Shown here piece by piece: positions 50,831 through 56,356 of a DNA stretch of 64,000 nt. The position numbers were made by a program, and so were the translations under genes. Positions within the stretch are counted from its first letter, which is position 1. Every line of letters starts with the position of its first letter. Source of the stretch: Streptomyces curacoi (lineage in GTDB: Bacteria; Actinomycetota; Actinomycetes; Streptomycetales; Streptomycetaceae); contig NZ_KQ947984.1 of the NCBI RefSeq assembly GCF_001513975.1, positions 634,226-698,225 on the forward strand, in the 5' to 3' direction. Under the pieces are notes generated by a model that saw nothing but the letters and a program-made list of their open reading frames with translations, was not told where the DNA came from and made no database searches.

Positions 50831-52945
50831 TCAGAAGAGGAGTTCTTGCCCAGGAGCGGTGTCATTGCCTTTCCTCTTCGGGCTGGGGCGATGCGGTACC
50901 CGCGCCTCGGCAGGAAGGTTTTCCCACGTGGGTCGGAGGCCATGTATCTGCACGTCACCGACGCAGGCCTTGAGGTAATCCTGGGTCTCCTCGTCCGTCG
51001 AGTAGAGCACCGTCGCGCGGCTGGCCCTCGTCATGAGCACGTGGTAGGCGTGCCGGACGCACCGGGCGAACTCTTCCTCGCTGTCTTCCTTACTCCCCGT
51101 CGTCTCCCTGAGCTTCATGTCGAACGAGCCGGGGACTTTGACGCGTTTAACCTTGGCTTCCGAGTCCTCATACCACTGCCCCTTGCGATAGACCCAGCGG
51201 TCGCCGCGTCTCACCATGTCGTCACCGAGGATCACCCCGCACCAGTCCCACTCAAGTCCCTGCGCCGTGTAGACACAGCCGATCTGGTTGATGCCGAAGG
51301 GGTGGACAGACCAAATCGTTGAGGGGGGCACCGCTCCGTCCTCGCAGAAGGAGTCGCTTTTGGCGTTCCACGGCCGGTGCCAGCCACCGATCCGCACGTC
51401 TGCCTCCAGGCGTGCGGCTTTGCCCTTTCCCACCGGCTCAGTCCACGGCCAGCAGAAGCCGGCCACCATGCGGGCCGTCGCTCCCGCCTCTGCCTCGGTC
51501 CTGATGATGTGCTCGAGTTCCTCCGGGCTGTCGGCCACCTCCACATGCATCAACCCGTCAGGGGTCCACTCGGTGGTTCCTGCCTCAATGCCCAGGACAG
51601 CACGGACCCAGCGGATGTAGGCGTCACTGCCTCCGCAGCGCCATTCCTCCCTGAGCCGATAGTGGAGCGGAGTGATCCCCCGCGCTCTGGCTGCTCCCTC
51701 GATCAGGCTTACCGTTCCGACCTCCTTCGGCCGCACGGACTGGCTCTCGTCGAGAAAGAACACCGTGAGCCGGGAGGCGTCAAGCAGATCGTCCACCTGA
51801 GGCTGCTTGCCGGACTTCTCTTCCCGGCGGTACATGTCGATGGTTCGCTCTCTCAAGCGATGCGCCTCGTCACAGATGAGGACGTCCAGGCGAGGCTCGG
51901 GAGGGGTCACGAAGTGGCTGAAGTAGGCGAACCTCTTCCTGAACTCCTTGTCCGTGTAGCCCACCTGCTCCTTGAGTGCCCCATTGAAGGCGCGGCTGCC
52001 ACTGGCGTACTTCACCGTGTGGCCGCCCGCCTCAAAATCGGCCCTGAGCTGTAGACCGACCGCGCTCTTTCCAGTGCCTGCACCGCCCGTCACGATGAAC
52101 ACGGCTCGTCCGTCGTCCGGCAGCGCGACGGACTGGTCGGGATGACCGAGGACTGCTGCGGCTCGTTGCCGCACACTGGCCGCCACTCTCTTCTGCTGTC
52201 CGCGCAGGGTGAACACCGTGTCCTCTCCGCGGGATCTGATCATCGCGTCGAGAAGGGGCGTGTTGCGCAAATTCATCAGCCGCAGCAGTTGCTCTGCCTC
52301 GGAAGCCGCGCCCTCCTCCGCGAAATTCCCTCGCAGGTCCGCAAGGAGCAGGTCACGGCTGTCGCGGGTGTACACACGTTCGTAGGCGCCGGTCGGTGCC
52401 AACGTATCCAGCAGCGGCCGGACCGAGTCATCGGTGGCGTTGTGCAGGTATGCGAATCCGCCGCATTCGATCGAGATTCCACGCAGTGGTCCCTGATCCC
52501 CGGTGAACAACTGGTATGTGTCGCGGAGTTGTAGCGCAGGGTGCTTCTTTGGCTTCTTGATTCCCGGCACACTCACCAGCTCCGCCGTGGCCGCTTCCAC
52601 CTGCGTCACCGTTGACCATCGCTTCAGTTCGACGAGTTGGAATGAGGGCAGACGCGTCTCAGGATGTCGGCCCACGAGCACGACATCGATGAGCCGCGGC
52701 TCGCCCCTCTCCGGTTCGTCGACCGTCGCTGCACACTCGACGACCATCTCGACGTTGCCCCGCTCCGCTGCGACCAGGTCCTCCGCCAGCTCGACCAGGC
52801 TCTCGGCCCACGCCTCGCGCTCGGAGTCCGACACATCGCGGCCTCGAAAGTACTGATACCTGGCCGCGAGATGAGGCACCATCCGCCGCCTCGAGTTCAG
52901 GGTGAGCAGATCCTGCGCGGACAATCTCAGCAGGAGCATGGACAC
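50831..52945 (-). CDS. PD-(D/E)XK-like nuclease fused to DUF2075 (Schlafen group 3-type) helicase, copy A
   Basis: A 704-residue protein. The N-terminal 130 residues resemble a PD-(D/E)XK nuclease: an acid in RLIDVVLVGRHP and an ExK in QLVELKRW near residue 104. The P-loop is VTGGAGTGKSAV near residue 287 and Walker B VLICDEAHRLRE near 358; FFLDESQSV, EWRCGGSDAY, VYTAQGLEWDW and LMTRASRATVLYST match superfamily 1 motifs III-VI of DUF2075. GTG at 52945 is preferred because GGGGGAA lies seven bases upstream and matches the paralogue's start. The leader folds over that site. Predicted to unwind and cut nucleic acid; a defence role is inferred. Confidence 0.85.
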   Translation of the reverse strand: MSMLLLRLSAQDLLTLNSRRRMVPHLAARYQYFRGRDVSDSEREAWAESLVELAEDLVAAERGNVEMVVECAATVDEPERGEPRLIDVVLVGRHPETRLPSFQLVELKRWSTVTQVEAATAELVSVPGIKKPKKHPALQLRDTYQLFTGDQGPLRGISIECGGFAYLHNATDDSVRPLLDTLAPTGAYERVYTRDSRDLLLADLRGNFAEEGAASEAEQLLRLMNLRNTPLLDAMIRSRGEDTVFTLRGQQKRVAASVRQRAAAVLGHPDQSVALPDDGRAVFIVTGGAGTGKSAVGLQLRADFEAGGHTVKYASGSRAFNGALKEQVGYTDKEFRKRFAYFSHFVTPPEPRLDVLICDEAHRLRERTIDMYRREEKSGKQPQVDDLLDASRLTVFFLDESQSVRPKEVGTVSLIEGAARARGITPLHYRLREEWRCGGSDAYIRWVRAVLGIEAGTTEWTPDGLMHVEVADSPEELEHIIRTEAEAGATARMVAGFCWPWTEPVGKGKAARLEADVRIGGWHRPWNAKSDSFCEDGAVPPSTIWSVHPFGINQIGCVYTAQGLEWDWCGVILGDDMVRRGDRWVYRKGQWYEDSEAKVKRVKVPGSFDMKLRETTGSKEDSEEEFARCVRHAYHVLMTRASRATVLYSTDEETQDYLKACVGDVQIHGLRPTWENLPAEARVPHRPSPKRKGNDTAPGQELLF

Positions 52946-52952
52946 GAGGTGG

Positions 52953-53017
52953 TTCCCCCAGGGCACGAGTGACTCGCGCGGGTGGGGGCATGTCCCTGGG
53001 GAAGCCCGTCGGGCCGC
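52953..53017 (-). promoter_or_regulatory. Conserved leader hairpin sequestering the ribosome site, copy A
   Basis: On the gene strand CCCCCA (52988-52983) pairs with TGGGGG (52960-52955), which contains the ribosome site; inside, GCGCGAG pairs with CTCGTGC (52979-52973 with 52969-52963) with one G-U. Upstream at 53002-53017 is AAGCCCGTCGGGCCGC, a near palindrome also present before copy B. Confidence 0.6.
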
Positions 53018-53141
53018 AATCCGGTACCGGTGATCTTAGAAACACGGCCCCATACAGAGAAACCGGATGCTTGTTCGTCGGCCCGATCCGTAGGCATCGT
53101 GGCCGGATCACGCTGCCAGTGGCATGGGCTTGGACGAACTC

Positions 53142-53684
53142 ATGACCGTTCATGATGTTGCCGCCGCGCTGCTGGACATCCCCGGCCTGCGAGAGATGTG
53201 CCGTTCCATCGCCATAACCGCAGCCGTGCTGAATCCCTGCGACTACAAGTACTACTCCTTCGACGTGCGCTGGTCGGAGACTGAGGAAGCCTTTCTCGAT
53301 GCGGAGCGGCAGCGGGGACGAGTTCGATGTCGTCTTTTCCCTTGCCGGCGCGTACATACGCGGCTTCGACCACGAGTCGCCGATGAGTCCGAACGCTGAG
53401 GACGTGGTCTGGCCGGGCGTGCTCGACTCGGTGCCTGGGGCCTTCCACGCCCAGATCGCAGAGCTGGCCCGACGGCTCCGGCTGGATGCTCGACCTGCTT
53501 GTCGAGCCCACTCCTGAAGCAGTCGTTCGCAGAGGACTAATACGAGTGCCCCGTCGACCTCGACGCCGTCTGCCACATTTATGGACAGCGGCCACTGGCG
53601 CCCGAGATCGCGGCTCGTCTGAATTCCGCTGCCTCCTTCGAGACGGTCTCAAAGGAGGCGGAGCGAACGGGCTACCCGGTTTGA
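53142..53684 (+). pseudogene. Decayed hypothetical gene between the two helicase-nuclease genes
   Basis: Pieces of one protein lie in several frames: MTVHDVAAALLDIPGLREMC and NPCDYKYYSFDVRWSETEEAF from 53142; then GSGDEFDVVFSLAGAYIRGFDHESPMSP in another frame from about 53303; then LVEPTPEAV near 53495; then YECPVDLDAVCHIYGQRPLAP after an in-frame TAA at about 53538, ending at 53684. I recognise these as parts of a roughly 220-residue Streptomyces hypothetical protein of unknown function; its middle is deleted. The 3' end overlaps that of copy B. Confidence 0.75.
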
Positions 53685-55633
53685 CCCGTTCTGGCCGCCT
53701 TCTGACCCGTTTCAGCTGCCTTCCCTGCCGGACCGTCCACGCTGCGGTCAGCCCCCTGCGGGGTCCCGTTCCAGACGGCCCCCAGCTCGCGTAGCTTCTC
53801 TCGGGTCTCTGGGTCCGTCGAATACACGACTGTGCCGACCATGCCCCGGGTCAGCAGCACCTTGTAGGTGTTGCGGATCAGGCGGTCCACGTCATGGTCA
53901 GGGGTGGACCTCTTGAAGACCGGGTCCTTCGACGCCGTGCGGTCCGTGATCCAGCGGTCGCCGCGCCAGACCAGATCGGGGCCGATGATCACGCCGGACC
54001 AGTCGTACTCGAAGCCCTGGGCGGTGTAGACGCAGCCGACCTGTCCGAAGCCGGCCGGGTCGGTGGCCCACAGGGCGGCCGGGGGCGCGCCGGAGACGGA
54101 GCGGTCACCGCGCAGGTTCCAGGGACGGCCCCAGTCGCCGATGACGACGTCGGGCGGGAGCGGGTCGCCGGGCTTGGGTTCCGGGGACCAGCTCCAGCAA
54201 TAGCCCGCGGACATACGGGCGCCGTAGCCCTGGGTCCGACGGGCTTCGAGGAAGGCTTCCATCTCCTGCGGGCTGTCGGCGACCAGCAACTGCATACGGT
54301 CGTCGGGCTCCCATACGACCGGTCCGCCCGGCTCCAGGCCGAGGAGGCGGACCACCCAGCGCAGGTAGGCGTCACTGCCACCGCAACGGAACTGGCTGTC
54401 CAGGGGGACGACACTGCAGGGGATGCCGCGCTTCGCCGCTGCCGCCTTGATGTCGGCCACGGTGCCCATCTCGCCGGGGCGGACGACCTGGTGCTCGTCG
54501 AGGAAGAAGACGGGCACGTAGGCGACGTCGATGAGTTCGTCGATCTGTGCCCTGCCGGTACGATGCTCGGCGCGCGTGTAGCGGTTGGCCGAGGTCTCCC
54601 GGATACGGTGTGCCTCGTCGCAGATCAGGGCGCCCAGGCTGTTCTTCTCGGCCGTCATGAAGCTGTTGAAGTACTTGAACAGGTCCTGGACTTCCCGCTT
54701 GCGGGCTCCAGCGACCTTCCTCATCGTCTTCGTGAACGACTGCGAGCCGGTGGCGTGCAGCGCCGGAACCCCACGCCGGTAGAGCTCGCCGAGCAGTTGG
54801 AGAGCGATGACGCTCTTGCCGGTGCCTGGGCCGCCCGTGACGATGACGACCTCCTTGCGATCGGCGTGCTTGGCCTTCTCCACCGCGTTGAGCACCATGC
54901 GGTACGCGACCTGCTGCTCGTCGAGGAGGACGAACTGCGTGCGTTCGCGCACCTCCTGAGCGGCCACGGACATGAGCTGCTTCGACGGCACCGTGGCGCC
55001 TGCGCGGAGTTCGTCCGCCGCCCGGGCTCCCGGGTGCTTGTCGCTCAGCCTTGAACGAAGGTGGTCCAGGAAGGCGCCTCGGCGTTCCGCCGTGAAGAGC
55101 AGTCCGTGGCCGTCGCGCTCGATCTCCCGCAGTCCGGTCACTCCGAACTCGGTGGCATTGTGCAGATACGCCACTCCGGCCACCCGGTGCCCGTGTTCGG
55201 CCACCGCCCCATTGAAATTGACGAGATATTCGCAGTAGCGGCGCACCTGCTCGATGGGATTGAGTACCGGCTGGGCATAGGCGTCGACATGACACAGGGT
55301 GGGGTCGTCCTCATGTGGCAGTGCCTGGCTCCACTGCTTCAGCTCCACCACGACATAGGACGGCTCTCCCGTGACCGGGTGCACTCCAGCGAGGACGACA
55401 TCGGCGCGCTTGCTGTTCAGCGGGAGCGCGTACTCCAGCATGACCTCCACGTCGCCCAGTCCGGCGTCGTTGAGTGCGGCGGCCAGGACGGGGATGCTGC
55501 GCTCCCAGGAACGCACTTCCGAGGCGCCGGGCCGATAGCCGTGCATGTGGACGAACTTGTCGGTGAGGTGCAGGAACAGCGAACCGTCGAGTGCCATGAC
55601 GGCGACCGTTTTCGCGGACGCGCGGAACAGCAA
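53672..55633 (-). CDS. PD-(D/E)XK-like nuclease fused to DUF2075 (Schlafen group 3-type) helicase, copy B
   Basis: A 653-residue paralogue of copy A with the same domain order. Nuclease-like motifs are KRADVVLAGVHP and YVVVELKQWS near residue 96; P-loop VTGGPGTGKSVIAL near 268; Walker B ALICDEAHRIRE near 339; then FFLDEHQVVRPGEMG, QFRCGGSDAYLRW, VYTAQGFEYDWSGVIIG and VLLTRGMVGTVVYST. TTG at 55633 is chosen because LLFRASA aligns with copy A's LLLRLSA and GGGGGAAG lies just upstream; the first in-frame ATG is 55597. The C-terminal 30 residues (GKAAETGQKAARTGQTG) are low complexity and overlap the pseudogene. Confidence 0.85.
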   Translation of the reverse strand: MLFRASAKTVAVMALDGSLFLHLTDKFVHMHGYRPGASEVRSWERSIPVLAAALNDAGLGDVEVMLEYALPLNSKRADVVLAGVHPVTGEPSYVVVELKQWSQALPHEDDPTLCHVDAYAQPVLNPIEQVRRYCEYLVNFNGAVAEHGHRVAGVAYLHNATEFGVTGLREIERDGHGLLFTAERRGAFLDHLRSRLSDKHPGARAADELRAGATVPSKQLMSVAAQEVRERTQFVLLDEQQVAYRMVLNAVEKAKHADRKEVVIVTGGPGTGKSVIALQLLGELYRRGVPALHATGSQSFTKTMRKVAGARKREVQDLFKYFNSFMTAEKNSLGALICDEAHRIRETSANRYTRAEHRTGRAQIDELIDVAYVPVFFLDEHQVVRPGEMGTVADIKAAAAKRGIPCSVVPLDSQFRCGGSDAYLRWVVRLLGLEPGGPVVWEPDDRMQLLVADSPQEMEAFLEARRTQGYGARMSAGYCWSWSPEPKPGDPLPPDVVIGDWGRPWNLRGDRSVSGAPPAALWATDPAGFGQVGCVYTAQGFEYDWSGVIIGPDLVWRGDRWITDRTASKDPVFKRSTPDHDVDRLIRNTYKVLLTRGMVGTVVYSTDPETREKLRELGAVWNGTPQGADRSVDGPAGKAAETGQKAARTGQTG

Positions 55634-55725
55634 GGACTTCCCCCAGGCAGCACGAAAAGACTCGTGCGGGTGGGGGCATGTCCTTCGAGACTCCACCGGG
55701 GTGGAGCGGAAGCCCGTCGGGCCGC
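55634..55725 (-). promoter_or_regulatory. Conserved leader hairpin sequestering the ribosome site, copy B
   Basis: On the gene strand GGAC-ATG-CCCCCA pairs with TGGGGG-AA-GTCC (55683-55671 with 55645-55634), and inside it GCACGA pairs with TCGTGC (55667-55662 with 55655-55650). The TGGGGG strand includes the ribosome site. An extra hairpin CTCCACC/GGTGGAG (55691-55706) and the block AAGCCCGTCGGGCCGC (55710-55725) precede it. The remaining bases to 55934 show no gene. Confidence 0.6.
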
Positions 55726-55934
55726 GTTGACGATGTGTTTGAGGGTACCTGGCGGCACTGGCACTGGTACCGGTGGCGGCAGCAGACGCTGTGTCCGGGG
55801 TCTTCCCTGCCAACGCCAAGACGCCCGTCGCCAGCTGTCAGCGGTGCACTTGCGCCGACCCCCTTGCTGGCTCGCCGTGCCGGGCGTCATCCGGAGAACA
55901 TGGCCTATGGCCAATGGCCGTGGAAATGTGAGGC

Positions 55935-56356
55935 GGCAGACGAGTCGGGCTGTACGCCGGGTTCTGTTCCGAGGGGTCCTCGCGGACCCCCCGGCGACGG
56001 CCATCCATCTAGGGCCGGCGTTGCCGTCGGCCTCCTGCGGTCTACCCGCGGACTCGGGCGGGCAGCCCTCGAACGTCCGCGCAGGGTCGCCCGCTCTTGC
56101 GAGAAGGCGGCCCCTCTTGACCTTGCTCCGGGTGGGGTTTACCTAGCTGCCCAGGTCACCCTGGGCACTGGTGGTCTCTTACACCACCGTTTCACCCTTA
56201 CCCAGCGCCTGAGCGCCGGGCGGTCTGCTTTCTGTGGCACTGTCCCGCGGGTCACCCCGGGTGGCCGTTAGCCACCACCCTGCCCTGTGGAGCCCGGACG
56301 TTCCTCGGGAAGCCCCCTGGGGAGCTCCACGCGGCCGTCCGCCCGGCTCGTCTGCC
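55935..56356 (-). ncRNA. rnpB: RNase P RNA (class A, actinobacterial)
   Basis: The RNA subunit of ribonuclease P, which matures tRNA 5' ends. Conserved landmarks on the minus strand are GAGGAACGTCCGGGCTCC near the 5' end, ACAGGGCAGGGTG, GGTAAGGGTGAAACGG and GTGTAAGAGACCACC in the specificity domain, GGGTAGACCGCAGGAGG, and the 3' ACAGAACCCGGCGTACAG that pairs back to the 5' region. The terminal GGCAGACGAG/CTCGTCTGCC-like ends close helix P1. Length of about 420 nucleotides is typical for Streptomyces. Confidence 0.95.

Follow-up and report, generated by a model that had tools for sequence, protein, structure and literature searches.

The two nuclease-helicase genes of the Streptomyces curacoi window (i.e. 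the whole stretch of 64,000 nucleotides analysed here) are each preceded by a leader hairpin that is real, lies at the coordinates given in Table 1 and is far beyond what chance would produce. When these two leaders are considered together with their relatives, we think it reasonably probable, judging from sequence comparison, that in actinobacteria a conserved cis-acting RNA leader governs how two mutually non-homologous groups of nucleases, likely to act against phages, are translated, with one helix (beta) as its closed state and a competing helix (alpha) as its open state. To our knowledge, it is mostly unknown by what means bacteria restrain self-harming defence nucleases until these are needed, the known answers being largely transcriptional or lying in protein activation. 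If such a leader is common to non-homologous defence nucleases, post-transcriptional control of immunity becomes testable by simple reporters.

In the window, genes B and A lie in tandem on the minus strand, each with its own leader. The first-pass annotation had claimed the same order of elements before both genes, namely block S1, block S2, an inner stem and a Shine-Dalgarno arm, and this order was confirmed. The pairing of CCCCCA with TGGGGG over the Shine-Dalgarno sequence was likewise found in the minimum free energy (MFE) folds of both copies, where the start region is also held in an outer stem; the folds have energies of -37.1 kcal/mol (z -2.05) for copy A and -46.6 kcal/mol (z -2.60) for copy B. 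It had also been remarked that the leaders stayed close while the coding regions diverged, and indeed the S1 and S2 blocks are identical between the copies whereas the two proteins are 37% identical. A search of the window with ACATGCCCCCACCCGC, allowing up to two mismatches, returned the two leaders only (0.12 matches expected), and these are also the sole occurrences of the exact S2 core ACATGCCCCCACCCGC in the genome. An ATG downstream of the likely start of copy B is not conserved, being AGG in two relatives (L018 and L020). The "compensatory change" that had been noted in the inner stem is only a one-sided change, from A-U in copy B to a G-U wobble in copy A; two-sided pair changes are absent among 25 Streptomyces type-A leaders, and genuine ones occur only in leaders more distant than these. 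What stands of the original reading as an RNA switch is therefore the structured leader over both ribosome sites, to which a second, competing helix can be added, but not the pair cited in its support.

Table 1. Elements of the two leaders and the genes that follow them, in window coordinates.
Feature	Position	Strand	Remarks
Copy A, -10-like hexamer TAAGAT	53033..53038	-	20 nt upstream of S1
Copy A, block S1 CCGACGGGCTTCC	53000..53012	-	5' half of helix alpha
Copy A, block S2 GGACATGCCCCCA	52983..52995	-	strand common to helices alpha and beta
Copy A, inner stem-loop P3 (GCGCGAG-TCA-CTCGTGC) with CCC/CC flanks	52961..52982	-	
Copy A, Shine-Dalgarno arm TGGGGGAA	52953..52960	-	3' strand of helix beta
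Copy A, likely start GTG (52943-52945), in-frame ATG (52937-52939)	52937..52945	-	TGTCC pairs with S2 GGACA
Gene A, SLFN-g3 helicase with N-terminal PD-(D/E)XK-like motif	50831..52945	-	PF09848 7.6e-88; D..ExK motif
Copy B, -10-like hexamer TACCCT	55742..55747	-	21 nt upstream of S1
Copy B, block S1 CCGACGGGCTTCC	55708..55720	-	
Copy B, spacer hairpin GCTCCACC..GGTGGAG	55684..55707	-	inside helix alpha; many relatives keep the stem, sequence varies
Copy B, block S2 GGACATGCCCCCA	55671..55683	-	
Copy B, inner stem-loop P3 (GCACGAG..TTCGTGC) and TGCC	55646..55670	-	
Copy B, Shine-Dalgarno arm TGGGGGAA	55638..55645	-	
Copy B, likely start TTG	55631..55633	-	GTCCTT pairs with leader AAGGAC
Gene B, SLFN-g3 helicase / PD-(D/E)XK-like protein, PADLOC candidate PDC-S41	53672..55633	-	PF09848 1.2e-92; PDC-S41 1.2e-19

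Two further features of the neighbourhood may be mentioned. Between genes B and A there are about 650 nt without a clear gene (window 53020-53670), and the short plus-strand ORF in this interval (53124-53399) may be what is left of a decayed gene. An RNase P RNA gene (window 55937-56350, minus strand) lies about 210 nt upstream of leader B, a neighbour that we also saw beside the leader in one other species (L019) and that is not general; given this adjacency in two species, rnpB may have been an insertion site.

The PADLOC match of gene B to PDC-S41 covers both the nuclease and the P-loop region, whereas its match to Nhi (1.5e-7), in the helicase part, spans only part of that model; gene A matches PDC-S41/Nhi weakly. 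An alignment-based AlphaFold model of the gene B protein (pLDDT 84.9) has an SF1 helicase region near UvrD and the Schlafen helicases, and comparison of its helicase part with SLFN11 gave a Z score of 19.2 and an rmsd of 3.5 over 282 residues. A D..ExK motif (D77..E96xK98), consistent with a PD-(D/E)XK nuclease, is invariant in 22 aligned relatives that include both gene types. In this putative PDC-S41/Nhi-like architecture the helicase part is thus supported by PF09848 and by the fold, and the nuclease part by a single feature, the D77..E96xK98 motif. An anti-phage function of the helicase genes may be supposed because of the family resemblance and the restriction-type neighbours.

The leader also precedes other genes of the helicase family: in a genome collection the element stands directly before the gene in 71 of 76 helicase homologues, as opposed to 2 of 760 control stretches. 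The genera concerned include Rhodococcus, Nocardiopsis, Micromonospora and Georgenia. Among the five homologues without the element, one falls at an assembly gap (L063), one has a rearranged leader (L071), one has a diverged leader that the covariance model still detects weakly (L103), and in two (L087 and L100) no S1/S2 leader was detected. Of 395 genomes belonging to the class, 28, from 13 genera, contain the two-block pattern CCGACRGGCTTCC..GGACAYGCC, and in two families closely related two-block patterns occur in 19 of 181 genomes of one and 34 of 181 of the other; as the reversed control gave no matches in any of these searches, the S1/S2 pattern can serve as a marker for finding more members. 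Within Streptomyces, a type-A leader is nearly always accompanied by a type-B leader, either about 2.1 kb off or inverted nearby, which indicates that the B+A pair of the window is a conserved cassette.

The element is also found before the gene of a non-homologous protein, an HNH nuclease with an EVE-like N-terminus, in Rhodococcus, other Mycobacteriaceae and Georgenia. This protein matches HNH_2 (E-values down to 3.7e-13), PDB entry 6yex (5.8e-12) and the PADLOC HNH model (2.8e-15), its EVE part being detected weakly (best Pfam E-value 0.0058). In one more genome (G625) the element precedes a gene encoding an EVE and restriction-like protein (PADLOC type IV restriction, 1e-4). The EVE/HNH leaders keep S1 and S2, while the 3' arm is very different and still complementary by prediction. 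Wherever the neighbourhood was read, the EVE/HNH genes and the EVE/restriction-like gene of G625 adjoin the helicase, and among the loci fetched for HNH nuclease homologues at large none, apart from the known G625 locus, has the element; the element therefore belongs to the helicase cassette rather than to HNH genes generally. The arrangement outside Streptomyces suggests that the nuclease-helicase and the EVE gene form a two-component defence cassette, the counterpart of the Streptomyces B+A pair. At four loci (L177, L085, L089 and L178) the EVE/HNH or EVE/restriction-like gene lies immediately 3' of the nuclease-helicase.

Covariation in further homologues, the absence of which had been named beforehand as a refutation, is present in both helices. 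Helix alpha joins RGGC-U-UCC of block S1 (consensus CCGAC-R-GGC-U-UCC) to the complementary GGA-CAY-GCCY of block S2 (consensus GGA-CAY-GCC-Y-CCA), and since both blocks align gap-free, the counts for alpha need no structural alignment. In a mutual-information scan over all S1 x S2 columns, the predicted antiparallel pairs 13-1', 8-8' and 6-10' ranked first to third, and there were 10 double-changed cells compared with 1.9 after shuffling (0/500). At the end pair R6/Y10', 157 of 176 leaders have G-C, 13 have A-T, four have A-C, and G-T and C-C occur once each. The independent events behind such counts are few: on the helicase tree, pair 13-1' underwent about three joint changes with pairing kept (C-G to U-A twice, to G-C once) and one change to a wobble; pair 8-8' changed once with compensation and once without it, the uncompensated A-C being the state of a whole Rhodococcus clade; and pair 6-10' shows one or two compensated changes among the helicases, others in EVE/HNH leaders, and four scattered uncompensated tips (A-C). 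In Georgenia satyanarayanai, a joint C-G/U-A change in alpha distinguishes two strains whose beta arm is the same. Between S1 and S2, the spacer in many cases folds into a stem of its own, with varying sequence (GCUCCACC/GGUGGAG, GCUGUGA/UCACAGC and GAGGUGCGCC/GGCGCACC). A kissing contact between GAC of S1 and GUC in the P3 loop was considered and dropped, as the loop varies on inspection.

In helix beta, S2 pairs with the Shine-Dalgarno and start region. Across genera (84 leaders), two-sided changes were seen in 8 of 22 pairs, four of the 22 belonging to a small hairpin within S1, and amounted to 13 cells versus 1.3 after shuffling (0/500), counts that are inflated by the fitting of the alignment (A6) to the structure; sliding the partner strand abolishes the signal. 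Examples are CUCCA/UGGAG in Nocardiopsis, CCCCUA/UAGGGG in L075 and GUCCC/GGGA in Georgenia. The hairpin has a mean MFE z score of -3.5 over 121 leaders, and in the lineages examined it covers the Shine-Dalgarno sequence and the start region. Occlusion of the Shine-Dalgarno sequence would be predicted in this GC-rich context, the computed native accessibility being 0.172 versus 0.226 for shuffled upstream sequence, an effect too small to decide.

S2 positions 1'-3' and 8'-10' are needed by both alpha and beta, so that the two helices compete and cannot both form completely. In helicase leaders in which S2 has changed, both of its pairing partners tend to have changed as well, and three-way changes of S1, S2 and the Shine-Dalgarno arm are found (A6-U10'-A in Nocardiopsis and L214, A8-U8'-A in Georgenia and Pseudactinotalea, including L094), as expected from two alternative helices under selection. 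This joint use of the same S2 bases argues against a static brake, in which the beta hairpin would permanently limit how much of either nuclease is translated and alpha would be a first-forming, mRNA-stabilising 5' hairpin, without any switching. Nor would such a brake require that bases of the alpha region (CCGAC and CAY) be unpaired and yet invariant, and it does not sit well with a separate leader on each gene of the cassette. In its favour are the energetics: beta is favoured over alpha by about 9 kcal/mol in helicase leaders (1.8 in EVE/HNH leaders), so alpha, at that distance above the MFE state, would need help or kinetics, and when alpha is enforced in helicase leaders the opening in silico is modest, with the unpaired fraction of the Shine-Dalgarno sequence rising from 0.168 to 0.257 and start-region accessibility from 0.39 to 0.51. 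All in all, we regard a permanent brake as unlikely, albeit with some claim to attention. Because the computed opening is modest and the native accessibility is near that of shuffled sequence, we infer which state is open and which is closed rather than report it as a result.

In the two-state leader that we prefer, beta would be the resting, closed state and alpha the open one, favoured by fast RNA folding; alternatively, a protein or small molecule might bind the invariant unpaired bases of alpha (CCGAC, the bulged U and CAY) and shift the leader towards it. The leading candidates for the trigger would be an infection-linked signal or autoregulation by the encoded protein. In the latter case the nuclease-helicase or a partner would bind or cut its own leader and thereby adjust its own synthesis, an explanation that names the trigger and keeps the same RNA element. 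Nucleic-acid enzymes often regulate their own mRNA, and the element is almost always found with this helicase or on an adjoining gene, but the sequence offers nothing that separates autoregulation from an external trigger, and we hold this explanation to be possible, if doubtful. Equally tentative is the broader proposal of a two-state RNA sensor that, across actinobacteria, silences unrelated anti-phage nucleases and frees all of them on a common infection-linked signal, i.e. a post-transcriptional defence regulon.

In 111 of 121 leaders a TANNNT hexamer precedes S1 by 15-40 nt, as against 12 in the reversed control, and its end peaks 17-23 nt upstream of S1. With a -10 hexamer preceding S1, transcription from upstream of the hairpin, which the first-pass annotation had presupposed, is very likely, and the transcript should begin about a dozen bases before S1 and include the whole leader. 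The near-fixed distance between S1 and the hexamer, together with the strong conservation of the S1/S2 sequence, is also what one would expect if the inverted repeats were a DNA operator, binding a transcription factor beside the promoter. However, the EVE/HNH leaders start, where this is measurable, 15-96 nt past the stop codon of the upstream gene and by inspection have no recognisable consensus -10 hexamer, and leaders lacking an adjacent promoter of their own favour action in RNA over action in DNA. Moreover, the two-sided changes alter the sequence while keeping the pairing, the palindrome of S1 can be lost with no matching change (CCGACAGGC), and in the lineages examined the hairpin lies over the ribosome site and start region, all of which makes a DNA operator highly improbable. 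As for attenuation by a leader peptide, a short ORF starting at the ATG of S2 (MPPPARV...) would stall ribosomes and so open the hairpin, and ATGCCCCCACCCGCACGA does read M-P-P-P-A-R in both window copies. Yet this ATG is ACG in many leaders (GGACACGCCC), its reading frame with respect to the main gene varies (L023), and upstream of S1 there is no conserved start codon. With the start codon lost in so many otherwise intact leaders we ruled this peptide out, and attenuation of this kind retains hardly any probability.

As a kind, a leader that covers the Shine-Dalgarno sequence and has competing helices is already known. In Erm-type translational attenuators (ermC and ermB) alternative helices likewise free or hide the Shine-Dalgarno sequence, with a middle strand that pairs either upstream or downstream; in contrast to these, our leaders have no conserved leader peptide or stall site, the start codon being lost in many of them, and the controlled genes would encode nucleases rather than rRNA methylases. 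Translational riboswitches and protein-leader RNAs similarly combine a 5' UTR structure and conserved unpaired bases with an expression platform on the Shine-Dalgarno sequence, and a phylogenetically supported 5' UTR structure with conserved unpaired bases is what was found here; unlike those with a known ligand, the present leader is known from sequence and predicted structure. The Streptomyces RNA motifs dauA and livJ are computationally found 5' UTR structures, and that of dauA includes the Shine-Dalgarno sequence, but they belong to different genes and the paper makes no mention of Schlafen or DUF2075 genes (PMC11109978). The second leader-bearing family resembles the EVE-HNH endonuclease VcaM4I (6YEX) in its EVE-like N-terminus and related HNH domain; the searched passages of that report contain no regulatory leader (PMC7897488). 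In the open-access literature that we searched, nothing relevant was found on an RNA leader for DUF2075 genes or on RNA control of defence. None of the families in Rfam 15 (4227 models) scores above its gathering threshold on the leader or matches it above chance, even at E-values up to 10, the sole match being RNase P at 55937-56350. The Weinberg 2017 motif survey reportedly includes a motif named ssNA-helicase. Apart from that motif, and measured against Rfam and the open-access literature searched, what appears to be new is the leader family itself, how far it extends taxonomically, and that unrelated nucleases have it in common.

As to whether the element came from phages or other mobile DNA, viral contigs gave no match. 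A 9-kb faecal scaffold labelled 'Bacteriophage sp.' (L207, MT836681.1), carrying a leader and a nuclease-helicase gene, is probably bacterial DNA. The type-B leader is present on three large plasmids of Streptantibioticus and Streptomyces (NC_016113.1, NC_017585.1 and NZ_CP023408.1), with 90-97% identity. Two loci (L070 2237-2530 and L071 2448-2530) concern inverted leaders: in Streptomyces sp. H27-H1 the B and A leaders are divergent, and the hairpin of H27-H5 resembles a chimera of both inverted leaders (TTGCCCCCAGGCAGCACGAAG..CTCGTGCCTTGGGGGA), which looks as if the inverted leaders had recombined with the pairing kept.
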